Both the position numbers and the translations under genes were made by a program. 64,000 nt of DNA. Source: Burkholderia sp. SRS-46 (GTDB lineage: Bacteria > Pseudomonadota > Gammaproteobacteria > Burkholderiales > Burkholderiaceae). Position 1 is the stretch's first letter. Each line of letters starts with the position of its first letter. The stretch covers positions 682,001 to 746,000 of the forward strand of contig NZ_PTXL01000003.1 in the NCBI RefSeq assembly GCF_004343775.1, written 5' to 3'. The notes below the pieces were generated by a model that had not been told where the DNA came from, ran no database searches, and saw nothing but the letters and a program-made list of their open reading frames with translations. Of this stretch, positions 1 to 10,095 are shown piece by piece.

Positions 1-1
1 G

Positions 2-2734
2 CTGTGCATCCCGCGCGGCGCGATCGAGCCGATCCTGCGCGACAACCCGGCCGCGCAGTCGTTCGTGACGAGCTACGTCGCGATCAGCTCGGCCGGCGGC
101 TTCGTGACGCGGCTGTTCGACCTGCGCGGCAAGCTGACCCGCGCCGAACTCGAGGAATACGTGTCGAGCGTCGGCGTGAAACGCGTCGCGGCCGGCAAGG
201 AGATCGTCACGCAGGGATCGGGCGGCGACCTGAGGCTGTACGTGGTGCGCCAGGGGGAGGTGCGCGTCGCGTGCCACGAGGACGGCAACGACTATCCGCT
301 CGCGACGCTCGGTGCGGGCGAGATTTTCGGCGAGCGCGCGTGCCTGCTGCGGCAGGAACAGGCGGCGACCGTCACGGCGGTCACCGATACGCGCCTGCTG
401 GTGATTCCGGAAAAGACCGTGCACTTCATGCTCGAGCGCAACCCGAAGCTGCGCGAGGTGCTCGAGGAGCGCATTCGCTTCGTGGACCAGGAGCTGCAGC
501 GGCAGAAGAAGCTGGCCGAGCGGCGGCGCCATCCGCTGCAGATCGACATCGGTGCGGACGCCGGCTTCAACGAGCGCATGATCAAGCGTTTCGTGCTGGT
601 CGAGCAGGCCGAGGAAATGGATTGCGGGGCGGCGTGCCTCGCGATGATCTGCCGTCACTACGGCGTCGCGATGACGCTCGGCAAGCTGCGCGATCTCGCC
701 AACGTCACCACCCAGGGCGCGACGCTCGACAGCCTCGCGCGCACCGGCGAGGCGGTCGGCTTCGCCACGCGCGGCGTGCAGTGCACGTACGAGGCGCTGC
801 TCGGCTTCGAGCTGCCGTTCATCGTCCACTGGGAGGGGTACCACTACGTCGTCGTGTATGGCGTGTCGAAGTCGTGGGTGCGCATCGCCGATCCGGCGCT
901 CGGCTTCAGGAAGCTGAGCGTCGAGGCGTTCGAGCGCGGCTGGAGCGGCACCTGCCTGCTGTTCACCGCGAGCGGGCCGGCGGCGGCGCCGGCCGAGACG
1001 CGTTCGCCGTGGGTGCGCTTCATCGGCTACCTGCGGCCCTACAAGAAGATACTCGCGCACCTGTTCCTGGCGACCTTCGTGATCCAGGTGCTCGGCGTGA
1101 TCCCGCCGCTGATCATCCAGAACATCCTGGACGGCGTGATCGTGCACCAGAACGTGAGCCTGCTGCACCTGCTGATCGCCGGCCTCGTCATCTCGCATGT
1201 GTTCACGCAGCTGATGACCACGATCCGCGCGCACCTGTCGAACTTCATGGTGCGCAGCCTCGACTTCGCGATGATGTCGCAGTTCTTCAAGCACACGATG
1301 TCGCTGCCGTACTCGTTCTTCGCGCGCCGCAAGAGCGGGGACGTGTTCGCGCGCTTCCAGGAAAACCAGACGATCCGCGCGTTCCTGACGGAATCCACCG
1401 TCACCACCGTGCTCAATCTCCTGATGATCTTCATCTACTTCACGATCATGTTCCTCTACAACGTGAAGATGACGCTGCTGCTGATCGCGTTCGTGATTCC
1501 GATCATGGTGCTCACCGCGCTCGCGACGCCGAAGCTGAAAGGCTATGCGCGCGAGGTGTTCGCCGCGTCGACCGATGCGAAATCGCTGCTGATGGAGACG
1601 CTCGGCGGCGTCGAGACCGTGAAGGGCATGGGCATCGAGCGCTCGGTGCGGCTCAAGTGGGAGCGCAAGTATGCGAAGGCGCTCGACGTGCAGTACCGCG
1701 CGCAGGCGTTCCACATCCTGGTGGCGCTCGGCAGCCAGCTGCTGAATGCGGCGACGACCATCGTGATCCTGTGGGCCGGCGCCAATCTCGTGCTGTCGCA
1801 TGAACTCAGCATCGGGCAGCTGATTGCGTTCAACGCGTTCATGGGCAGCGTGCTGGCGCCGCTGATGGGGCTGGTCGGCATGTGGAGCCTGATGAACGAC
1901 GCGGCGGTGGCGATGGAGCGCCTCGGCGACGTGCTCGACATCGAGCCCGAGCAGAAGCCGTCCGACCTGGGCTCGCGCGTGCTGCTGCCCGACCTGCAGG
2001 GCGACATCCGCTTCGACGGCGTGTATTTCCGCTACGGCGGCAACGAGACGCCTTACGTGCTCGAGAACATCAGCTGCACGATCCAGCGCGGCGAGATGGT
2101 GGCGATCGTCGGGCGCAGCGGGTCGGGAAAAACCACGCTCGCCAAGCTGCTCGTCGGCTTCTACGCGCCGACGGACGGCAAGATCGTCGTCGACGGCTAC
2201 GACATGAACGCGATCGACAAGGCCTGCTACCGCGAGCAGATCGGCTACGTGATGCAGACCAACCTGGTGTTTTCCGGCTCGATCGCCGAGAACATCGCGT
2301 GCGGCGACGCGAGCCCGGACTGGCGGCGCATGGAGGAAGTCGCGCGGATGGCCGACGCGCATGCATTCATCAGCAAGTTGCCGCTCGGCTACGAGCAGGT
2401 GGTGGGCGAGCGGGGCGTGGGCCTGTCGGGCGGCCAGATCCAGCGGCTGTGCATCGCCCGCGCGCTGTATCACGACCCGCGCCTGCTCGTGTTCGACGAG
2501 GCGACGTCGTCGCTCGACACCCAATCGGAGAGCAACATCCTCGGCAACATGCACGAGATCCTGCTGGGCCGCACGGCGGTGATCATCGCGCACCGGCTGA
2601 GCACCATCATGCGCGCCGACAAGATTCTCGTGCTGTACGAGGGGGCGATCGTCGAACAGGGCACGCACGATGAACTGGTCGCCCGCCAGGGCATGTACTA
2701 CCAGCTCGTGCAGAAACAACTGGGCGCGACATGA
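2..2734 (+). CDS. cyclic nucleotide-binding / C39 peptidase / ABC exporter (5' partial)
   Basis: Peptidase-containing ABC transporter that should cleave double-glycine leaders and export the peptide cores across the inner membrane. The frame is open at the window edge, so the start lies upstream. Visible in order: the tail of one cyclic-nucleotide-binding domain (nt 2-65), a second complete one (about nt 170-480), a C39 peptidase domain (about 580-970) with the oxyanion Gln six residues before the catalytic Cys (codon at 623) in DCGAACLAM, and His and Asp in HYVVV and ADPALG. A six-helix ABC membrane domain (about 1015-1900) and a nucleotide-binding domain follow, with Walker A GRSGSGKTT near 2110, signature LSGGQ, Walker B LLVFDEA and an H-loop. 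All catalytic residues are present. The stop overlaps the next start (ATGA), so the two genes are probably co-translated. The four leader peptides at 4857-7446 are the obvious substrates. The family assignment is secure; regulation by cyclic nucleotide is inferred from the domains. Confidence 0.95.
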   Translation: MCIPRGAIEPILRDNPAAQSFVTSYVAISSAGGFVTRLFDLRGKLTRAELEEYVSSVGVKRVAAGKEIVTQGSGGDLRLYVVRQGEVRVACHEDGNDYPLATLGAGEIFGERACLLRQEQAATVTAVTDTRLLVIPEKTVHFMLERNPKLREVLEERIRFVDQELQRQKKLAERRRHPLQIDIGADAGFNERMIKRFVLVEQAEEMDCGAACLAMICRHYGVAMTLGKLRDLANVTTQGATLDSLARTGEAVGFATRGVQCTYEALLGFELPFIVHWEGYHYVVVYGVSKSWVRIADPALGFRKLSVEAFERGWSGTCLLFTASGPAAAPAETRSPWVRFIGYLRPYKKILAHLFLATFVIQVLGVIPPLIIQNILDGVIVHQNVSLLHLLIAGLVISHVFTQLMTTIRAHLSNFMVRSLDFAMMSQFFKHTMSLPYSFFARRKSGDVFARFQENQTIRAFLTESTVTTVLNLLMIFIYFTIMFLYNVKMTLLLIAFVIPIMVLTALATPKLKGYAREVFAASTDAKSLLMETLGGVETVKGMGIERSVRLKWERKYAKALDVQYRAQAFHILVALGSQLLNAATTIVILWAGANLVLSHELSIGQLIAFNAFMGSVLAPLMGLVGMWSLMNDAAVAMERLGDVLDIEPEQKPSDLGSRVLLPDLQGDIRFDGVYFRYGGNETPYVLENISCTIQRGEMVAIVGRSGSGKTTLAKLLVGFYAPTDGKIVVDGYDMNAIDKACYREQIGYVMQTNLVFSGSIAENIACGDASPDWRRMEEVARMADAHAFISKLPLGYEQVVGERGVGLSGGQIQRLCIARALYHDPRLLVFDEATSSLDTQSESNILGNMHEILLGRTAVIIAHRLSTIMRADKILVLYEGAIVEQGTHDELVARQGMYYQLVQKQLGAT

Positions 2735-4050
2735 AACTCTTCGATCCGCACGGATTCGGCAACTCGGCGGTGTCGTACGCCGGCCTGCTCGAGAAGATCG
2801 AGATCCTGCGCTCGATGCTGCGCTGGGCACCCAAGCTCGAGCGCCCCGACATCGAGAAGCTGCTCAACCAGGCGAACGTGCTGCGCGACGACGTGATGCA
2901 GATGTCGCGCAAGGAGCGCTTCGTCGACGCGGCCGCGGCCGCGCCGGAGGCGCTCGACATGCCGGAAGCGGCAGGGGCGGCCGGGTCGGCCGCGCACCGG
3001 CGCCGTCAGGCGCTGATCGAGCGCAGCTTCGTGTTCGAAGGCATCTTCGGCGACAACCCGAAGCTGCTCGCCGCGCTCGAGATCGCCGAGAAGGCCGCGC
3101 CGACCGATTTGCCCGTGCTGATCGACGGCGAAAGCGGAACCGGCAAGGAACTGATGGCGAAAGTCATCCATGCGAACGGCGGGCGCGCCGACCGGCCGTA
3201 CATCTCGGTCAACTGCGGCGCGATTCCCGACAACCTGATCGAATCCGAGCTGTTCGGCCACCGGCGCGGCGCGTTCACCGGCGCGTCGAACGATCGCAAG
3301 GGCAAGTTCGAGAGCGCGCACACCGGCACGATCTTCCTGGACGAGATCGGCGAGCTGCCGCTGCAGGGCCAGGTGAAGCTGCTGCGCGTGCTGGAGTCGC
3401 ACGAAATCCAGCGGATCGGCTCCGACGAGCCGATCGCCGTCGATACGCGCATCGTCGCCGCGACCAACAAGAACCTGCGGCAACTGAGCGAGCAGGGGCT
3501 GTTTCGCGAGGACCTGTTCTACCGGCTGAGCGTCATTCACCTGACGTTGCCGGCGCTGCGCGAGCGCCCCGACGAAATCCCGCTGCTGCTCGCGTACTTC
3601 GGCGACGAGGCGGCCGGCGCGCTGAAGCGCCGGCCCGTCAGGACGACGCCGAAGCTGCGCGACTTCCTGCTGACCTATGCGTATCCGGGCAACATCCGCG
3701 AGCTGCGCAACCTGGTCTACCGCCTGTCGTGCCTGGCCGGCGAGGTCGCGGATATCGAGCACCTGCCCGAGGACATCCGCCCGGCGGCGCCCGCACCCGC
3801 GCTGCGCGCGGCGGATGCCGATACGGCGGCCCGGCCGATGTCGCTCAGCGACGCGAAGCGTGCCGCGAGCGACGAGGCGGAGCGCGCGTTTCTCGAACGC
3901 GGGTTGCAGGAAACGGGGGGCACGGTGGCCGAGCTGGCGCGCCGCTGCGAGATGAACCGCTCGCATCTGCAGATGCTGCTGAAGAAGCACGGCATCCGCT
4001 CGAAGACGTTCCGGCACCAGGACGACGCGACGCGCGACAAGGAGGCGTGA
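2731..4050 (+). CDS. sigma-54-dependent transcriptional activator
   Basis: Enhancer-binding protein of 439 residues that should remodel RNA polymerase holding sigma-54. The N-terminal ~95 residues contain no receiver, GAF or PAS domain that I recognise, so the sensed signal is unknown. The AAA+ domain follows, with Walker A GESGTGKE (about residue 133), the sigma-54 contact loop GAFTGA (about 180), Walker B TIFLDEI (about 200) and the arginine-containing FREDLFYRLSV segment. A Fis-type helix-turn-helix lies at the C terminus (GGTVAELARRCEMNRSHLQM). The start ATG overlaps the exporter stop by four bases, indicating translational coupling. Three -24/-12 promoters 1.1-3.5 kb downstream (5190, 5520, 7519) are the natural targets. 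It is separated by 15 bp from the convergent phosphatase gene. Confidence 0.95.
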   Translation: MKLFDPHGFGNSAVSYAGLLEKIEILRSMLRWAPKLERPDIEKLLNQANVLRDDVMQMSRKERFVDAAAAAPEALDMPEAAGAAGSAAHRRRQALIERSFVFEGIFGDNPKLLAALEIAEKAAPTDLPVLIDGESGTGKELMAKVIHANGGRADRPYISVNCGAIPDNLIESELFGHRRGAFTGASNDRKGKFESAHTGTIFLDEIGELPLQGQVKLLRVLESHEIQRIGSDEPIAVDTRIVAATNKNLRQLSEQGLFREDLFYRLSVIHLTLPALRERPDEIPLLLAYFGDEAAGALKRRPVRTTPKLRDFLLTYAYPGNIRELRNLVYRLSCLAGEVADIEHLPEDIRPAAPAPALRAADADTAARPMSLSDAKRAASDEAERAFLERGLQETGGTVAELARRCEMNRSHLQMLLKKHGIRSKTFRHQDDATRDKEA

Positions 4051-4065
4051 GCGGCCGCCGCGCGA

Positions 4066-4836
4066 TCAGCGTCGCACGGCGGGATTCGCGAGCGTGCGGT
4101 CCGACGCCTCCGGATCGTCGGCGCGGATCACGATCGCGGTGATGTTGTCCCGCCCGCCCTCGCGCAGCGCATGCTCGACGAGCATGCCCGTCGCCAGCTC
4201 GCAATCGCCGCACGCGAGTGCGGCCGCGATGTCCGCATCCTCCATTTCATTGCTCAGGCCGTCGCTGCACAGCAGGAACATGTCGCCGTCGCGGACGTCG
4301 ATGCGTCCTTCGTCGAGCTGCAGCCGCTCGGTGGCGCCGACCGCACGCGTGATGAGGTGCTGCGCCGGATGATGACGCGCCTCCTCCGCGCTCAGGTGGC
4401 CCTGCGCCTGCAGTTCCGCCACCTGGGTGTGATCGAGCGTGAGCTGCGTCAGGTGCGCGTCGCGGTACAGGTAGATTCGGCTGTCGCCGGCCCAGAGCCA
4501 CGCGCATTGACGGCCGCTCGCGAGCAGCACCGCCACCGTGCTGCCGATCATGCGCACGCCGCATTCGGTGGCCGACGTGCGCAATTGCGCGTTGACGGCA
4601 ACGAGCGCGGCGCGCGCCGCCGCGACGAAATCCGCGAGCGTCGCCGGCACGGCCAGCCGCGCCAGCCCGTGCACGATCGTCCTGCTCGCGAGATCGCCGG
4701 CCGAATGGCCGCCCATGCCGTCCGCGACGGCCCACAGGCCGCGCTGCGGCAGCGCGAGGCAGTCGTCTTCGTTGATCTCGCGAACGTGGCCCACGTCGGT
4801 ACGCGAAGCCGACATCCACTGCAAGTCTGCGCTCAC
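4066..4836 (-). CDS. PP2C-family Ser/Thr protein phosphatase
   Basis: Metal-dependent protein phosphatase of 256 residues, essentially a bare catalytic domain. Motifs seen in order: RTDVGHVREINEDDC, the metal-binding VADGMGGH, GSTVAVLL, WAGDSRIYLYRD, LLCSDGLSNEM and GRDNITAIVI, so the metal-site aspartates are intact. The open frame runs far upstream, but I chose the GTG at 4836 because an AGGAGG lies just before it and the motif DVGHVREINED follows at the normal distance. It lies 20 bp downstream of leader peptide 1 in the same direction and is probably transcribed from the sigma-54 promoter at 5190-5206. The Ser/Thr kinase at 8005 is its likely antagonist. Related PP2C enzymes often partner kinases in secretion clusters; the substrate here is unknown. 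Confidence 0.93.
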   Translation of the reverse strand: MSADLQWMSASRTDVGHVREINEDDCLALPQRGLWAVADGMGGHSAGDLASRTIVHGLARLAVPATLADFVAAARAALVAVNAQLRTSATECGVRMIGSTVAVLLASGRQCAWLWAGDSRIYLYRDAHLTQLTLDHTQVAELQAQGHLSAEEARHHPAQHLITRAVGATERLQLDEGRIDVRDGDMFLLCSDGLSNEMEDADIAAALACGDCELATGMLVEHALREGGRDNITAIVIRADDPEASDRTLANPAVRR

Positions 4837-4856
4837 GGCGCACGATCCTCCTGGGT

Positions 4857-5141
4857 TTAGGCGAGCCGGTTCCTGCCGTCCTCGCCCACCACGACCGACA
4901 GATTGGCGCCGGCCGCCGAATTCGTGACGTCGACGTTCTGGATCTGGTTGACGACCTGGTTCGCGTAGAACGTGTTGAACGTCTGATAGAGGTTGACGAC
5001 CGGCCCGAACGGCGGCGCCGGCGGCACGTAAGGCTGGATCCAGCCGAATACCCACGGCGCGCCCGCGCCGCGGATGAACGACATCGCGTTGCGGTCGATG
5101 TCGCGCTGCAGGTGAAGGTCGGTAATCGCGAGCGTGGTCAT
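4857..5141 (-). CDS. leader-type secreted peptide 1 (GA variant)
   Basis: Small protein of 94 residues. The first 26 residues match the leader of three other small genes in this cluster (DIDRNAMSFIRGA against ELDRRAMSAVRGG), with Gly-Ala instead of Gly-Gly at positions 25-26, so cleavage there by the C39 exporter is plausible. The remaining 68 residues are rich in Pro, Asn, Gln and Val, contain no cysteine, and carry the motif QNVDV (residue 68) shared with peptides 3 and 4. The start ATG has GGAGA upstream and lies 49 bp from a sigma-54 promoter. The downstream PP2C gene follows after 20 bp. I recognise no named family. The inference is an exported peptide, perhaps a bacteriocin, signal or matrix component. 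Confidence 0.8.
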   Translation of the reverse strand: MTTLAITDLHLQRDIDRNAMSFIRGAGAPWVFGWIQPYVPPAPPFGPVVNLYQTFNTFYANQVVNQIQNVDVTNSAAGANLSVVVGEDGRNRLA

Positions 5142-5189
5142 GATGAGTCTCCGGATGGGCGCCTGGCGACGGACGGGATAACCGATACG

Positions 5190-5206
5190 TGCAAATCGCA
5201 TGCCAT
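5190..5206 (-). promoter_or_regulatory. sigma-54 (-24/-12) promoter for peptide 1 and PP2C
   Basis: On the minus strand the site reads ATGGCATGCGATTTGCA. It matches TGGCAYR-N4-TTGCA with the GG and GC doublets at the required spacing. It ends 49 bp upstream of the peptide 1 start. Confidence 0.8.
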
Positions 5207-5519
5207 GCGCGACGCGGGGCCGCATCGATCCGGCGAGTGCCCCATGCGGCAAGGCGCGGCGCCATCGGTACGCATTCCTTGCATGCTAGTGCGTCGCGGG
5301 CGCTTCCTGCAACGGTTGTCCGCACGCCGACACTTGCGGGGGCGAACGTGACCGGAAACCCGACACGTGCGCCGGAACCTGCCGATCGCGGCGGGTCGCG
5401 CCAACTGGTGCTGCCGCACCAACACAATCGCATGCAAACGGTTGGCCGCACGACGACAGACTGGCGCGCGGCGCGCCGGGCATGTCCCGCCACGCCTTGC
5501 GCATCGGTCCTCCGGTTCG

Positions 5520-5536
5520 TTGGCACGCTTGATGCA
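5520..5536 (+). promoter_or_regulatory. sigma-54 (-24/-12) promoter for the LRAT operon
   Basis: The site reads TTGGCACGCTTGATGCA, close to the consensus YTGGCACGRNNNTTGCW with correct GG/GC spacing. It lies 68 bp upstream of the LRAT-like gene and is divergent from the promoter at 5190-5206. Confidence 0.85.
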
Positions 5537-5603
5537 GGTTTGTTGGCAACCGGCCGACCTTTCGGCAGTCCATTCGGCCGGCAACCCGCCAACGGAGCCA
5601 GCC

Positions 5604-6134
5604 ATGAGACTCGACCTTCAACCGGTGACCCGCACAGCGTCCTGCGCCGCGGCCGTCGCCGCGTCGTCGATCGCGTGCGCGGCTTCGCCGACCGCCGCCG
5701 CCGACGCGCTGCCGCTCGGCGCGCACCTGGTGTCCGAGCGCGCCGGCTACAGCCATCACGGCATCTATGTCGGCGACGGTCGGGTCGTCCACTACGCGGG
5801 GCTGTGCGCGTCGCTGCAGCGCGGCCCGATCGAGGAAGTCACGCTCGAGCGCTTCGCCGGCGGCCACGCAGTGCGCATCGCATCGCATCCGCGCGCCGCG
5901 TATGCCGGCCGCGCGGCGGTGCTGCGCGCGCGCTCGCGTCTCGGCGAGAACCATTACCGCCTGCTGACCAACAACTGCGAGCACTTCTGTACGTGGTGCG
6001 TGGAAGGCAAGGGCCGCAGCGAACAGGTTCGCACCTGCGTGATGCATCCGCGCACGGCGCTGCGGTTCGTGCTGTCCGTTTGCCGCGCGCTGATGCTGAC
6101 GCGTCGCGCAGCGGTTGCGATGGCCCTTGCATAA
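5604..6134 (+). CDS. LRAT-domain (NlpC/P60-like thiol) protein
   Basis: Protein of 176 residues with the circularly permuted papain-like LRAT fold. His52 in SHHGIYVGDGR, His63 in VVHYAG and the nucleophile Cys125 in NNCEHFCTWC are all present. Family members are thiol acyltransferases, phospholipases or proteases. The first ~33 residues are Ala-rich and could be an export signal, and the last ~25 are hydrophobic and could touch the membrane. The ATG at 5604 was chosen because the frame upstream runs through the sigma-54 promoter. The gene leads a two-gene operon with the 80-residue protein at 6179. Placement among exported peptides and control by sigma-54 suggest a role in peptide maturation, lipid attachment or cell-envelope change; the actual reaction cannot be read from sequence. 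Confidence 0.85.
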   Translation: MRLDLQPVTRTASCAAAVAASSIACAASPTAAADALPLGAHLVSERAGYSHHGIYVGDGRVVHYAGLCASLQRGPIEEVTLERFAGGHAVRIASHPRAAYAGRAAVLRARSRLGENHYRLLTNNCEHFCTWCVEGKGRSEQVRTCVMHPRTALRFVLSVCRALMLTRRAAVAMALA

Positions 6135-6178
6135 GCGCCATCCCGACGCCATCGACTTTGCTGCCCGAGGAGGCTCGA

Positions 6179-6421
6179 ATGAACGCAACCGGATCCTCCC
6201 TGCGCATGCAGGTCGACAAGTGGCTCGCGCCGAGCGTGCGCGTGCCGGCGCGCGTGGTGCGCTTCAGCCGTATGCCGGCGCAACGGCGCCGCTATGTCTG
6301 CGTCGAGGCCGCGCATCCAACCGGCACCATCGCGATCTTCTTCTTTCGTCACGACGACGGCTCGTGGTGCGTGTTCCCGCCGGCAGGCGGGCGCGTCGCG
6401 ACGACGATGCGCGCGGCCTGA
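6179..6421 (+). CDS. small hypothetical protein of the LRAT operon
   Basis: 80-residue basic protein with no family I recognise. A strong GAGGAGG sits just before the ATG and the LRAT stop is 44 bp upstream, so co-transcription from the 5520 promoter is likely. The middle and C-terminal part (RRYVCVEAA, TIAIFFFRHDDGSWCVFPP) alternates hydrophobic and charged residues as in a small beta-sheet domain. It has no signal peptide or double-glycine leader. Function unknown. Confidence 0.6.
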   Translation: MNATGSSLRMQVDKWLAPSVRVPARVVRFSRMPAQRRRYVCVEAAHPTGTIAIFFFRHDDGSWCVFPPAGGRVATTMRAA

Positions 6422-6456
6422 GCGCGCGAGCGGCGCTCGACCACCGTGCGTGCCGC

Positions 6457-6675
6457 TCAACGCAACAAGGTCGGCTGCGCGTGCGACGCGACGGCTTCGG
6501 CCTTCGGCGTGCGCGCGAGCCCGGCGTCGGGTGCTCCGGTATGCAGATGGGGAAACGGCTGCGGCGCGAGCATCGTCTGATGCGCGTGGACCATTGCGCC
6601 GCCCGTGACGGCGGCCATGGCCTGCCGGTCGAGGTCGACGCTTTCAGGAAGATCGTGGATCACGAGAACGCCCAT
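6457..6675 (-). CDS. leader-type secreted peptide 2 (short, His/Pro-rich core)
   Basis: 72-residue protein. Residues 1-26 are a family leader (DLDRQAMAAVTGG, Gly-Gly at 25-26). The 46-residue core differs from the other three: it is rich in His, Pro and Ala, lacks the Q-x-V-x-V motif and lacks cysteine. The frame extends upstream to 6822, but the internal ATG at 6675 was chosen because it makes the leader exactly 26 residues like its paralogs and has a GGAG upstream. It is the last of three peptide genes on this strand and is separated from peptide 3 by a hairpin, so it may be expressed at a lower level or from its own promoter. Likely substrate of the C39 exporter. Confidence 0.7.
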   Translation of the reverse strand: MGVLVIHDLPESVDLDRQAMAAVTGGAMVHAHQTMLAPQPFPHLHTGAPDAGLARTPKAEAVASHAQPTLLR

Positions 6676-6797
6676 GGTCTGCTCCGCGACACGGGATGGA
6701 AAGAACGGCGGCCGAGCGGCAGCCTGCGCTGCGCTGGCCTCTGTCCAGTATAGGTGTCGGGGCAGGTCGGCGCGCCTCGAAAAGCGCACGGCGGCGC

Positions 6798-6820
6798 GGC
6801 CGGAGCGGGCGGCTCCGGCC
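6798..6820 (-). terminator. hairpin between peptide 3 and peptide 2
   Basis: Perfect 9-bp inverted repeat (GGCCGGAGC / GCTCCGGCC) with a 5-base loop, 20 bp after the peptide 3 stop. Only a short T-run (CTTTTC) follows some distance downstream, so it may attenuate rather than fully stop transcription into peptide 2. Confidence 0.5.
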
Positions 6821-6840
6821 ACGCCGTTTCGGGCCGGCGG

Positions 6841-7110
6841 TCAAGCCAGGCTGAAGCCCGTGCTCGCAAATTGCGAGGGACTGACGTCGAGCTTGAATTG
6901 CCCGATGCCCGGGCCGATGTAGCCGATGTTGTTGAATGCGTTGACCTCGACCGCCTGAAACTGCTGGATGTTCTGCGACACGCCGACGTTGACGGTGGCG
7001 ATGGGGCCAAGGCCGGCGAGCCATGAATTGGTGCCGCCGCGAACGGCTGACATGGCTTTGCGGTCGAGCGCCGATCCCGGCGCGAGTTCGCGGATCATGA
7101 TGGAAGACAT
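6841..7110 (-). CDS. leader-type secreted peptide 3
   Basis: 89-residue protein with a 26-residue leader ending ALDRKAMSAVRGG and a 63-residue cysteine-free core. The core contains FQAVEV (Q52) followed by an Asn/Gly/Ile-rich stretch, matching the Q-x-V-x-V element of peptides 1 and 4. A GGAGC ribosome site precedes the ATG. It lies 72 bp downstream of peptide 4 without a promoter of its own that I can see, so it is probably in the operon driven by the sigma-54 promoter at 7519-7535. Inferred substrate of the exporter at the left end of the window. Confidence 0.82.
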   Translation of the reverse strand: MSSIMIRELAPGSALDRKAMSAVRGGTNSWLAGLGPIATVNVGVSQNIQQFQAVEVNAFNNIGYIGPGIGQFKLDVSPSQFASTGFSLA

Positions 7111-7182
7111 GGCGCTGCTCCGAATGAAAGGATCACGTCGCGCGAGCCGGGCGGGCGCCTTGCGGCCCCGCCCGCGCCGCGC

Positions 7183-7446
7183 TCAGAAGTTGATCGTGTT
7201 GTGCGCGTTCTGCGTCGGGTTGACCGTCGAGCGGATGTTGGTCGCGAACGCGACGTCGTTGCCCGTGTTGTTCACCACGTTGACGGTCTGGCCGATCAGC
7301 TGCTCGGCATTGAAGTTGGTGGTGTCGAATTTGTACGACGGGTAGTACAGCGGCCACAGGCCCAGCGTGCCGCCGCGCACCGCGGACATCGCGCGGCGGT
7401 CGAGTTCGTGGGTCACGTTCAGGTCTTCGATGATGAGCTTGTTCAT
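7183..7446 (-). CDS. leader-type secreted peptide 4
   Basis: 87-residue protein, first gene of the minus-strand peptide operon. The leader ends ELDRRAMSAVRGG with Gly-Gly at 25-26. The 61-residue core has an aromatic start (LWPLYYPSYKF) and an Asn/Thr/Val-rich tail containing GQTVNVVNNTGND, with no cysteine. The ATG at 7446 is preceded by GGAGA and lies 73 bp from a near-consensus sigma-54 promoter. Longer upstream frames lack this context. The absence of Cys argues against lanthipeptides or disulfide bacteriocins, and no Ser/Thr dehydratase or cyclase is in the window. Confidence 0.83.
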   Translation of the reverse strand: MNKLIIEDLNVTHELDRRAMSAVRGGTLGLWPLYYPSYKFDTTNFNAEQLIGQTVNVVNNTGNDVAFATNIRSTVNPTQNAHNTINF

Positions 7447-7518
7447 GGCAGTTCTCCGGATGGATGCACAACGGCGGTGGGTGATCGAGCTGCAGGTTTG
7501 CGCGCTCGCATCACTTAC

Positions 7519-7535
7519 TGCATGGGACGTGCCAG
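7519..7535 (-). promoter_or_regulatory. sigma-54 (-24/-12) promoter for the peptide 4-3(-2) operon
   Basis: Minus strand reads CTGGCACGTCCCATGCA, nearly the full YTGGCACGRNNNTTGCW consensus with correct GG/GC spacing. Confidence 0.85.
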
Positions 7536-7923
7536 CCATGCCCGCGCGCGCATTCGACACGCGGCGCGTCTTGCGTGGCGGGCCTGGCAAGATTCGTCGG
7601 GGCACGCGTTCGACACGGTCCGGCGTTGCTTTTGGCAGGAAAATGACTGCGCCGGCCCAACAGGTTCCGGCCGGTTCGTTGGCCAGCGCGCGACAGGCCC
7701 GGGAAGGCCCGGGCGGCGCAGCGCCGGCGCCGGCCTGCGTCGGCCAGCCGGCGGGACGTCGAGTTCCGGTACCGATTGCACAGGGCGTGAGCGCGGACTA
7801 GTATGATTTGTTAGATGTCCTGTCGGAAGGCGTGGCGCGCGGTCGGTTTCGTCAGACGATGGCGTGACGGCGTCGTCGACGACGCCCGGACCTTCGCCGA
7901 CGCATTGCGCCGCATCGGGACGT

Positions 7924-7940
7924 GCATGGACAGTCCATGC
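7924..7940. promoter_or_regulatory. perfect palindrome upstream of the kinase gene
   Basis: GCATGGAC-A-GTCCATGC, 8-bp arms around one base, centred about 73 bp before the kinase ATG. The size suits a dimeric regulator. A weak sigma-70-like pair (TTGCAC, 17 bp, TAGTAT) lies about 110 bp further upstream. Confidence 0.45.
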
Positions 7941-8004
7941 CCTGGAGGCGCCGCGAGGCGCCCGATCGGGTCGGCCAGCCTGAAGCTGAGTTGAAGGCGT
8001 ACGA

Positions 8005-10095
8005 ATGATGAGCCTTGCGCAGCTGATTCAAACGTTCCAGAGCGGAGCGCTGTCCCGGGACGCGTTCTACTCGGAGATCGACCGGGCGCTGGCGACCGAT
8101 CGGCTCAATTGCGCACGCCTGCGCGAAGTGCTCGACGAGACGCAAACCACGCATCCGTTGTCGGACGAGGTCTACTCGGAGGTGCTGCGGCACATCGAGC
8201 GGTTCCATGACGGCACGGCGTCGGTCGGCGACGAGACCCGGCTCCAGGAAAGCGCCTTGCCGGCAGCGGGGCTGCCCGGCGTGCCGGCCGACGGCCCGCT
8301 GGTCGACGGCGAGCGCGTGAAAGGCATCGGCGACACCTTGAACGGGCGGTTCGTGCTGGAGGCGTGCCTCGGCGTCGGCGGCATGGGCACCGTTTACAAG
8401 GCGCTCGACCTGCGCAAGCTGGAGGCGTCGGACCGCAAGCCGCACATCGCGATCAAGGTGCTCAACGTGCAGTTCCGCGGCCAGCCGACGTCGCTGATCG
8501 CGCTGCAGCGCGAAGCCCGCAAGGCGCAGACGCTCGCCCACCGCAACATCGTCACGGTCTACGATTTCGACCGGGACGGGCCGCTCGTGTATCTCACGAT
8601 GGAGTACCTGTCCGGCAAGCCGCTCAGCAAGGTGCTGCGCGCGCCGGGCTTTGCGGGGATGCCGCTCGACGCGGCGCTGCCGATCATCGCCGGCATGGGG
8701 CAGGCGCTGGCCTACGCGCACGAGCGCGGCTTCGTCCACTGCGATTTCAAGCCCGCCAACGTGTTCATTACGGACAGCGGTGAAGTGAAGGTGATCGACT
8801 TCGGGATCGCGCGCGTGTTCCAGCGGCGCGACGAGGATCCCGACGTCACCGTGTTCGACCCGGCGAGCCTCGGCGGCATCACGCCGGCCTACGCGAGCCC
8901 GGAGATGTTCGAGCATCGCGAGCCGGATCCGCGTGACGACGTCTATGCGCTCGCGTGCGTGACCTACGAGCTGCTGGCCGGGCGCCATCCGTTCAAGCGG
9001 CTGTCGGCCACCCAGGCGCGCAGCGACAACTTGCGGCCCGAACGCCTGCCGGGCCTCGACCGCACGCAATGGCGCACCTTGAGCGCGGCGCTGTCGTTCG
9101 ATCGCGCGACGCGTACGCCGGGCATCAACCCGTTTCTCGAAGGCATGGGCGTGTTCAAGCGCCCGTCGACGCTGTCCGGCGTGCGCGTCGGCGCGGCGGC
9201 CGGCGCCTGCGCGCTGGCGGCGATCGTCGTGCTCTGGTATGGCCTCCAGGCGCTGTCGCGCAACAGCGAGCGGCATCCCGCGGCGAGCGCGCAGGCGCTG
9301 GCGCCCGCGGCCGGCAATGACGCCGCGACGGCGCATGCCACAGCCGCCAGCGCGCCGGCAGCCGTCGCCGCTGCCGTGAATCCGGCCGCCCCTGCCGCCA
9401 GCGCGCCGGCCGCGCCGGCCATCGCGCTGGCATCGGTGATGGCGGCGCTGTCGCGCCTGCCTTGTTCGGCGCTGGATGCTTCCGTGCGCGACCACGCGCT
9501 GCAGGTGCGCGGCTATGTGGAGGCCGTGGGTGGCGCCGCACGATTGCAAACCGCGCTCGATGGCATGGCGCTCGGGCAGGCCGTCAATCCGGACGTGCAG
9601 CCGATCGACGGTCACAACTGCGAAGTCGTGAATGCGCTGGCTGCGTACTGGCGAGCGAATCGCGCGTCGGCGCATGTCGCCTCGATCCGCACGCGGCCGC
9701 CGGATGCGCGTCTCGCCGAAGGCAGCCCGCTCGTCATCGACATCACGACGCCCGGCTACGACACGTACGTCTACGTCGACTACTACGTGCTGAACGGCAG
9801 CGTCGTGCATCTCGTGCCGAGCAGCCACGCGCGCGACAACCAGGCGCCGCCGAATTACTCGGCCACGATCGGCAGCATGGGCGACTGGGTGATCGGCAAG
9901 CCGTTCGGCACCGAGATGATCGTGCTGATCGCGACGCCCGCGCCGCTGTTCGATGCGCTTCGCCCGCCATCGGAGCCGCGCGCCGCCTATCTCGCGGCGG
10001 TCGATCGCCAGTTGAAGCTGTTCGACGCGAAGTATGGCGCGGGGCGCGTCGCCGCCGATTTCGTCCAGATCACGACGCACGCCGGCCGCAACTGA
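8005..10095 (+). CDS. transmembrane Ser/Thr protein kinase with DUF4384-like C-terminal domain
   Basis: 696-residue Hanks-type kinase. After an N-terminal ~110-residue region comes the kinase domain (about 112-370) with a Gly-rich loop LGVGGMGTVY, Lys151 in IAIKVL, Glu170, catalytic Asp247 in HCDFKPAN (HCD instead of HRD) and Asp265 in DFG. One membrane helix follows (about 392-415), then an Ala/Pro linker and an extracytoplasmic domain (about 560-650) resembling DUF4384 (ITTPGYDTYVYVDYYVLNG, DWVIGKPFGTEMIVLIAT). This layout places a sensor or cell-wall-facing domain in the periplasm. Two ATGs are adjacent; the first was taken. With the PP2C at 4066 it makes a reversible phosphorylation pair bracketing the peptide genes. 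Likely targets are the sigma-54 activator or the exporter, but this is inference. Confidence 0.93.
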   Translation: MMSLAQLIQTFQSGALSRDAFYSEIDRALATDRLNCARLREVLDETQTTHPLSDEVYSEVLRHIERFHDGTASVGDETRLQESALPAAGLPGVPADGPLVDGERVKGIGDTLNGRFVLEACLGVGGMGTVYKALDLRKLEASDRKPHIAIKVLNVQFRGQPTSLIALQREARKAQTLAHRNIVTVYDFDRDGPLVYLTMEYLSGKPLSKVLRAPGFAGMPLDAALPIIAGMGQALAYAHERGFVHCDFKPANVFITDSGEVKVIDFGIARVFQRRDEDPDVTVFDPASLGGITPAYASPEMFEHREPDPRDDVYALACVTYELLAGRHPFKRLSATQARSDNLRPERLPGLDRTQWRTLSAALSFDRATRTPGINPFLEGMGVFKRPSTLSGVRVGAAAGACALAAIVVLWYGLQALSRNSERHPAASAQALAPAAGNDAATAHATAASAPAAVAAAVNPAAPAASAPAAPAIALASVMAALSRLPCSALDASVRDHALQVRGYVEAVGGAARLQTALDGMALGQAVNPDVQPIDGHNCEVVNALAAYWRANRASAHVASIRTRPPDARLAEGSPLVIDITTPGYDTYVYVDYYVLNGSVVHLVPSSHARDNQAPPNYSATIGSMGDWVIGKPFGTEMIVLIATPAPLFDALRPPSEPRAAYLAAVDRQLKLFDAKYGAGRVAADFVQITTHAGRN

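Follow-up and report, generated by a model that had tools for sequence, protein, structure and literature searches.

A predicted sigma-54-controlled C39 export cluster for small peptides in Burkholderia and its possible role in matrix secretion

The stretch of Burkholderia sp. SRS-46 DNA analysed here (NZ_PTXL01000003.1, positions 682,001 to 746,000; 64,000 nucleotides, below referred to as the window) begins within a gene cluster in which a C39 peptidase-ATP-binding cassette (ABC) exporter lies next to small leader peptide genes, a sigma-54 activator, a PP2C-type phosphatase, a Ser/Thr kinase and an LRAT-like protein. This raises the question of what the cluster exports, under which control and to what end. 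On balance, by a narrow preference, we read it as a secretion system for matrix peptides under Ser/Thr-phosphorylation and sigma-54 control. The predicted export system and its regulon are well supported by the genome comparisons described below; the matrix role of the peptides we infer by analogy with other bacteria.

Leader peptides and their exporter

The original prediction was that four genes of the window, pepA to pepD, share a leader of exactly 26 residues. This was borne out, with Gly-Gly (GG) at the leader end in three of them and Gly-Ala (GA) in one (Table 1). A profile built on the leader retrieved these four genes and a fifth, pepE, from the 8.59 Mb genome with E values of 1.5e-16 to 2.2e-14. 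Only one further genome match fell below E 1, and it was weak (E 5.6e-4, or 3e-5 with a wider profile). The gene concerned encodes 61 amino acids, with a GG leader that has diverged and a mature part containing two Cys, and is located downstream of an apparent outer-membrane efflux protein gene (L016:1480-1665; C15:888960-889145 in its own genome).

Leader genes were compared in two sets. The first consisted of 107 genes in 25 stretches, and the 26-residue frame fits 106 of these, the remaining leader being one residue longer. The second consisted of 203 genes in named loci. Here 275 stretches of a named species-level genome collection encode an exporter relative, of which the best 80 were fetched with up to 10 kb on each side. 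These 80 are mostly from Burkholderia, Paraburkholderia and Trinickia, and also include Noviherbaspirillum, Aromatoleum and metagenome-assembled genomes (MAGs) of Oxalobacteraceae and Rhodocyclaceae. The frame fits 191 of the 203 leaders (GG 167, GA 22, GR 2), and the other 12 are longer by one residue, GG falling at positions 26-27 in all of them by tally. Leader genes were present in 75 of the 80 loci; three loci (L120, L123 and L125) end at contig ends.

The exporter had been described as a cyclic nucleotide (cNMP)-C39-ABC protein with its catalytic residues present. The residues are indeed there, but the window holds only the C-terminal part of the protein (Table 1) and the domains of cNMP type number two rather than one. 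The full gene starts at -343, i.e. 343 bases upstream of the window, and encodes 1025 residues comprising two N-terminal cNMP-fold domains, the C39 peptidase and the ABC part. Residues Q317, C323, H396 and D412 (full-protein numbering), which we take to be catalytic, are invariant in 15 homologues. Fusion of a C39 domain with these residues to ABC membrane and ATPase domains, the presence of the ABC motifs and the linkage to precursors with a GG/GA leader are as in a peptidase-containing ABC transporter (PCAT), and PCAT and HlyB structures are among the best PDB matches. The nearest named relatives of the exporter are from Burkholderia species, with 90-96% identity over the N-terminal 436 residues.

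Gating by cyclic nucleotides, also part of the original prediction, found no support. The N-terminal domains match PKG and CRP and thus have a cNMP fold by sequence. In PKG an Arg of the phosphate-binding cassette binds the cyclic phosphate. In all 15 homologues domain 1 has a His and domain 2 a Gln at the equivalent position. Since the phosphate-binding Arg is absent from both domains, gating by cAMP or cGMP is unlikely and was rejected as stated. The domains may sense another ligand or merely transmit state. HetC of Nostoc PCC 7120 is likewise a C39-ABC exporter with an N-terminal cNMP-type domain, which binds ppGpp in vitro (PMC10986499); for the ligand of the exporter studied here this is a lead only. 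As far as the consulted part of that account goes, hetC has no membrane fusion protein gene or GG substrate nearby, whereas substrates, adaptor and channel are linked here.

Leaders and exporter were found together in whole genomes. Among 249 genomes of the family, 84 gave a leader match (E up to 0.01) and 79 an exporter match (E up to 1e-25). Leaders occurred in 79/79 exporter-positive and in 5/170 exporter-negative genomes, so that leader genes are not common without the exporter (Fisher p 1.6e-59, a value that overstates independence because the genomes are related). Two of the five exporter-negative genomes (G133 and G169) have single marginal leader matches (E 0.002 and 0.008). The other three (G179, G191 and G215), presumed to be Caballeronia, have leaders with E values of 2.6e-6 to 2.2e-13. 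None of the five contains an exporter at E 1e-25 or an activator at 1e-100; the activator match in the positive control G000 was 3e-290. G215 (L114) lacks the exporter match yet retains matches to the outer-membrane channel and the FHA protein, which makes decay of a former cluster, with its leader left as an orphan, likely there. The cluster of G242 (L097), with a shortened exporter match and one leader, may also be eroding. Among 398 genomes of the phylum, leader profile A9 (E up to 1e-4) matched three, all with an exporter above 850 bits, and five more genomes hold distant exporters of 143-211 bits.

Synteny was examined by tblastn with score thresholds in 25 stretches from 22 genomes including the window, 21 of which contain the exporter. 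Genes for the outer-membrane channel, the FHA protein, HlyD, the peptidyl-prolyl isomerase (PPIase), the ABC exporter, the sigma-54 activator and PP2C are each present in all 21 neighbourhoods, both DUF4399 genes in 20, and LRAT and u80 in 18. The kinase was found in 16 neighbourhoods and in three separate stretches of genomes that lack it nearby. Together with peptide genes it lies on either side of the core, or at a distance of more than 100 kb, and thus behaves as a module. Six distant exporter loci, from five genomes of other families and Skermanella, were compared as well. In five of them the exporter shows 34-36% identity along most of its length, and in the sixth 32% along 681 residues. 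HlyD lies beside five of the six, the PPIase beside three, a sigma-54 activator beside two, and a kinase with FHA beside one; no leader was detected in these loci at E up to 0.1. The presence of partner genes beside some distant exporters suggests that parts of the coupling may predate the Burkholderiales version. In one distant genome (L210) a similar exporter is accompanied by a Ser/Thr kinase, by matches to FHA and by an additional match of cNMP type, which hints at an older coupling.

The sigma-54 regulon

The activator gene of the cluster encodes a protein with Walker A, GAFTGA and Walker B motifs, in which no receiver domain was matched. Upstream regions were scored against the sigma-54 consensus TGGCACG-N4-TTGCW. 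Near-consensus promoters precede pepA, pepD and the LRAT gene, each with an upstream dyad TGTYG-N9-CRACA (Table 1). In the set of 107 leader genes, one of which was excluded for its short upstream region, a site scoring at least 25/30 within 250 nt was present before 58/106 peptide genes, 39/553 other gene starts (ten of them LRAT genes) and 37/2120 shuffled upstream sequences. The LRAT genes have such a site in 10 of 11 cases and genes unrelated to the cluster in 23 of 321. With a score of at least 24.5 at less than 95 nt (105 genes), and peptide classes A to D defined by short sequence patterns, sites were found for 21/21 class A, 31/41 class D, 0/17 class C, 0/7 class B and 5/19 unclassified genes. 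This distribution fits operons in which A or D comes first and C and B follow. In two genomes (G199 and G016) a sigma-54 site lies before the outer-membrane channel gene, which is not preceded by pepE there.

The dyad TGTTG-N9-CAACA, with at most two mismatches, lies above 63 of 67 promoters located at less than 110 nt (57 of peptide and 10 of LRAT genes), against 3.6 in shuffled sequences, 5/49 promoterless genes of the same set and 15/317 other genes. Judged by eye, dyad-promoter distances cluster near 61, 97, 108, 117, 128 and 142 bp, with some outside these values, and the preferred distances are approximately whole helical turns apart. To check the pattern, the 68 named loci outside the discovery set were taken from the 80; these are relatives rather than independent cases, and the promoter limit was 110 nt. 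A promoter was present for 56/59 pepA genes (dyad in 55/56) and 59/65 pepD genes (dyad in 59/59). For pepC the count was 0/11, for pepB 1/12 without a dyad, and for unclassified genes 8/20 with a dyad in 8/8. In 14 whole genomes, promoter and dyad at 115-145 bp spacing matched 23 sites, 22 of which lie in the cluster by position, and the reversed control gave none. At 85-115 bp spacing 10 sites were found, 6 of them in the cluster; with four off-cluster sites and two control matches this version is much less specific.

The combination of -24/-12 promoters, upstream sites and a GAFTGA-bearing enhancer-binding protein is, by sequence, that of a sigma-54 regulon, and the cluster's own activator is the obvious candidate for binding the dyad. 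Co-occurrence, synteny, promoters and enhancer-type sites thus lend strong support to the central claim of the original prediction, a dedicated peptide export under sigma-54 control. The divergent pepA/LRAT intergenic region (5142-5603) holds the dyads of both promoters, and a dyad-like site at 5441-5458 may be shared.

Inclusion of LRAT in the regulon bears on one alternative, in which the peptides are substrates of the type of ribosomally synthesized and post-translationally modified peptides (RiPPs) that the LRAT-like enzyme acylates or otherwise modifies before export. The LRAT copies listed retain the His and Cys motifs, the copy in the window is without a strong hydrophobic segment, and 20/41 pepD members weakly match TIGR04149, a model of RiPPs modified by radical-SAM enzymes (best E 0.0004), although this match is probably to the generic GG leader. 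LRAT was not found in 3 of the 21 neighbourhoods that keep exporter and peptides, and none of the genes scanned with Pfam was recognised as coding for a radical-SAM enzyme or a classical enzyme of RiPP synthesis. We consider modification by LRAT quite improbable, the least favoured of the alternatives discussed here.

The regulon also bears on whether the peptides could be extracellular signals, with the kinase, phosphatase and FHA proteins and the sigma-54 activator forming a feedback circuit that senses them. The main output of this dedicated regulon is the peptide genes themselves, the kinase has a C-terminal domain beyond its hydrophobic segment, and HetC, with its cNMP-type domain, has been proposed to export a regulatory peptide (PMC10986499). 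Against this stands that no receptor was identified and that peptides kept across genera would confer little specificity. To our knowledge four or five co-located Asn-rich peptides of 45-70 residues would also be unusual for signals. Signalling is unlikely, though it is the strongest of the competing accounts.

Nature of the secreted peptides

After cleaning, the peptides of the named loci comprise 69 of class A, 19 of class B, 16 of class C, 78 of class D and 21 unclassified ones. Mature class A peptides have a mean length of 69 residues and mostly start with G(G)APWV-GWI; the mean lengths are 64 for class C, 65 for class D and 49 for class B. Class D often occurs in copies flanking both sides of the exporter. 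The Asn content of mature A, C and D peptides is 14-15%, against 2.5% in other proteins of the stretches, and their median pI is 4.8-5.4, against 11.7 for class B; the D set used for composition was slightly contaminated, carrying at least one class C row. In profile-profile comparison of the cleaned mature sequences of A, C and D the scores of 23.8, 23.3 and 22.2 all exceeded the highest values from 20 column shuffles each (16.0, 15.3 and 19.7), the C-D pair (22.2 against 19.7) only just. Mature A, C and D are probably paralogues with a common core around Q-x-I-x-Q. Peptides with the same leader that fall outside classes A to D are encoded in L196, L197, L145 and G199 (L078), with sequences such as GFFDQANATQQ..., GSNFNIGN... 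and SVFQN....

The mean ratio of nonsynonymous to synonymous substitution rates (dN/dS) of mature pepA is 0.24 in 8 Burkholderia sequences and 0.10 in 9 sequences of the Paraburkholderia group, and that of mature pepC is 0.27 in 7 Paraburkholderia-group sequences; values for the exporter N-terminus are 0.13 and 0.08. Values for class D and for Paraburkholderia class B were set aside owing to class C rows in the D set. Purifying selection acts on mature pepA and pepC, and pepA retains one sequence type from Burkholderia to Aromatoleum.

This conservation argues against the peptides being bacteriocins or class II microcins that leave via the C39 exporter. Points in its favour are that bacteriocins typically have GG leaders and C39 exporters, that the name bacteriocin cluster was given to cyanobacterial clusters sharing this exporter module (PMC3140520), and that the peptides show weak, presumably leader-level matches to ComC (best E 0.0009), Bacteriocin_IIc and a CTB-bacteriocin model. 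Clusters of this kind usually include a cognate immunity gene next to the precursor, most often for a small membrane protein. No small membrane immunity gene was found among the peptide genes of the window in a crude test of one genome (4.0-8.0 kb, ATG/GTG starts), which leaves room for an immunity protein that is soluble, for instance u80. The u80 protein is not hydrophobic, and the sole hydrophobic small open reading frame at 4.0-8.0 kb overlaps pepC/pepD in antisense. A bacteriocin function appears doubtful, more so than signalling.

Structural material is favoured over a toxin or signal because the peptides are conserved, Asn-rich, present in multiple copies, co-regulated and without an evident immunity gene. 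A model for such material is found in Synechococcus elongatus, where the small GG/GA proteins EbfG1-4 are secreted in a C39-dependent manner by PteB and take part in biofilm formation (PMC4997328), with amyloid evidence for EbfG1-3 (PMC9981879). As in the Burkholderia cluster there are four small GG/GA-leader proteins, which have mature masses of 6-7 kDa and need the Cys of the C39 transporter for efficient secretion (PMC4997328, PMC9981879). Synechococcus belongs to a different phylum, and the biofilm and amyloid evidence comes from that system. The consulted parts of the PteB/EbfG accounts contain no reference to a sigma-54 regulon or to partner proteins of kinase, phosphatase or FHA type (PMC4997328, PMC9981879). 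In the Pseudomonas Fap amyloid system a C39-type protease is also needed for secretion of Asn/Gln-rich matrix proteins. FapD is, by its description, periplasmic and outside any ABC exporter, and FapF is a dedicated barrel, which sets Fap apart (PMC5557850). As regards the functional amyloid curli, the Pfam matches at E up to 1 for 41, 59 and 15 class members included no curlin family.

The exporter module itself (HlyD, SurA-type rotamase and a long-type CAP_ED-C39-ABC exporter) is already known from groups I, II and VI of the cyanobacterial bacteriocin clusters (PMC3140520). Group II clusters have several precursors each, and groups I and VI fewer. The extra CAP_ED domain is single in the cyanobacterial long-type exporter, against two cNMP-type domains here, and the cyanobacterial core peptides show very little conservation, whereas classes A, C and D are shared by several genera. 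That account, in the part consulted, describes no sigma-54 regulon or phosphorylation genes (PMC3140520). The claim that no named system has this composition thus holds for the whole cluster within the searches made, but not for the exporter module. No published description of the Burkholderiales cluster was recognised among the papers listed in the literature searched, many journals lying outside that coverage. Within these searches three features are new: the classes of peptide, a private sigma-54/dyad regulon to which LRAT belongs, and the fixed linkage of the system with genes for FHA, PP2C and kinase proteins.

In the matrix-peptide reading, the cytoplasmic C39 domains would cut the small precursors after the GG/GA leader, and the ABC exporter, HlyD and the outer-membrane channel, helped by the PPIase, would carry mature peptides of 45-70 residues out of the cell. 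Sigma-54 and the cluster's enhancer-binding protein, acting at the TGTYG-N9-CRACA sites, would switch on the peptide operons and the LRAT-like gene, with timing most likely set by the membrane kinase, PP2C and the double-FHA protein. Once exported, the Asn-rich peptides would most likely come together in a material of the cell surface or biofilm matrix, like EbfG in Synechococcus. More tentatively, the cluster could represent a separate route to an extracellular peptide matrix, built from Asn-rich, probably self-assembling A, C and D peptides with B as a cationic partner and secreted through a type I exporter, in which a Ser/Thr switch licenses production and export via a private sigma-54 enhancer code.

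Several observations weigh against a matrix system of this kind. The cationic pepB evolves faster (mean dN/dS 0.38 in 8 Burkholderia sequences), which is not expected of a matrix subunit. Scans of Pfam, NCBIfam and PDB gave no convincing Pfam or PDB family match for mature A, C and D; the weak matches were judged leader-level or chance, and known-family labels were rejected. The AlphaFold model of pepA has a mean predicted local distance difference test score of 45.7 and is uninformative as to a beta fold or fibre. In Aromatoleum (L196 and L197) and one Noviherbaspirillum locus (L178), pepA is without the promoter; some other peptide genes of these three loci carry promoter and dyad, so that the regulon appears to reach outside the family only in part. 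Finally, no leader gene was found within 10 kb of the exporter in L148 and L157, whose exporters may have their substrates elsewhere in the genome. In these two loci, which belong to Noviherbaspirillum massiliense and to a MAG of the Rhodocyclaceae, PPIase, exporter and activator persist as an island with 71-78% identity, and no HlyD match was called nearby.

If the matrix-peptide reading is correct, the Burkholderiales would gain a dedicated secreted peptide material, and eukaryote-like kinase, phosphatase and FHA signalling, sigma-54 transcription and C39 export would be joined in one locus. The cluster occurs in several genera, Burkholderia and related soil and plant bacteria, and its products are most likely biofilm-type material rather than toxins. 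The promoter and dyad code makes the hypothesis directly testable and offers a way to find further members.

Cluster layout and neighbouring genes

The cluster reaches about 7.65 kb upstream of the window start, as seen in 18 kb of upstream sequence, and the window contains its right part only. From left to right the genes are two DUF4399 genes, pepE, the outer-membrane channel, the FHA protein, HlyD, the PPIC-type isomerase and the exporter, followed on the 3' side by the sigma-54 activator, PP2C, pepA, LRAT, u80, pepB, pepC, pepD and the kinase (Table 1). As originally proposed, a sigma-54 activator, a PP2C phosphatase, a membrane Ser/Thr kinase and an LRAT-like protein lie beside the leader genes; these and the C39-ABC exporter have Pfam matches above cut-off, and the proteins contain what we take to be the expected catalytic motifs.

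Table 1. Features of the peptide-export cluster in window coordinates; negative positions lie upstream of the window
Feature	Position	Strand	Basis
Two DUF4399 proteins	-7654 to -6796		Pfam
pepE, fifth leader gene	-6464 to -6201		leader profile
Outer membrane efflux protein (OEP, outer-membrane channel)	-6075 to -4600		Pfam
Double-FHA protein, one hydrophobic segment	upstream of window, between OEP and HlyD genes		Pfam FHA
HlyD adaptor	upstream of window, between FHA and PPIase genes		Pfam
PPIC-type isomerase (PPIase)	upstream of window, directly before exporter		Pfam rotamase
Exporter, C-terminal 910/1025 residues: second cNMP-type domain, C39 peptidase, ABC membrane and ATPase domains	1..2734	+	Pfam
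Sigma-54 enhancer-binding activator	2731..4050	+	PF00158 5.8e-69; Walker A, GAFTGA, Walker B
PP2C-type Ser/Thr phosphatase	4066..4836	-	PF13672 1.3e-14; NCBIfam Stp1-type match under cut-off; motifs
pepA: 26-aa leader ending GA and 68-aa mature peptide (GAPWVFGWIQPY...)	4857..5141	-	
Sigma-54-type promoter of pepA (TGGCATGCGATTTGCA), 48 nt before ATG	5190..5205	-	
Dyad upstream of pepA promoter, 2 mismatches	5314..5332	-	
Dyad upstream of LRAT promoter, 1 mismatch	5406..5424	+	
Sigma-54-type promoter of LRAT gene (TGGCACGCTTGATGCA)	5521..5536	+	
LRAT-like thiol protein, same regulon	5604..6134	+	PF04970 1.5e-23; promoter
u80, 80-aa conserved protein, no assigned function	6179..6421	+	found in 18/21 neighbourhoods; no Pfam match
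pepB: 26-aa GG leader and 46-aa peptide, cationic class	6457..6675	-	
pepC: 26-aa GG leader and 63-aa Asn-rich peptide	6841..7110	-	
pepD: 26-aa GG leader and 61-aa Asn-rich peptide; heads pepD-pepC-pepB run	7183..7446	-	
Sigma-54-type promoter of pepD-pepC-pepB run (TGGCACGTCCCATGCA)	7519..7534	-	
Second enhancer-like site of pepD (TGTTGGGCCGGCGCAGTCA), spotted by eye	7644..7662	-	
Dyad upstream of pepD promoter, 2 mismatches	7677..7695	-	
Ser/Thr kinase with hydrophobic segment and C-terminal DUF4384	8005..10095	+	PF00069 1e-38, PF14326 7.2e-7; motifs

A role in anti-phage defence was considered and rejected: PADLOC matches to kinase, ATPase, phosphatase, cNMP-type and RtcR-type activator models were taken as generic domain matches. 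For the DUF4399 pair, PMC12322963, in the part consulted, merely lists a protein of this family. A caspase-domain protein fused to an FGE-sulfatase domain adjoins the pair (L009:7999-9987; window -10001 to -8013). A loose test, which may include unrelated FGE or caspase-type proteins, gave caspase-FGE matches in 19 of 21 neighbourhoods. At the other end of the cluster, the gene after the kinase resembles the xanthine-dehydrogenase type and occupies this place in just 3 of 21 neighbourhoods.

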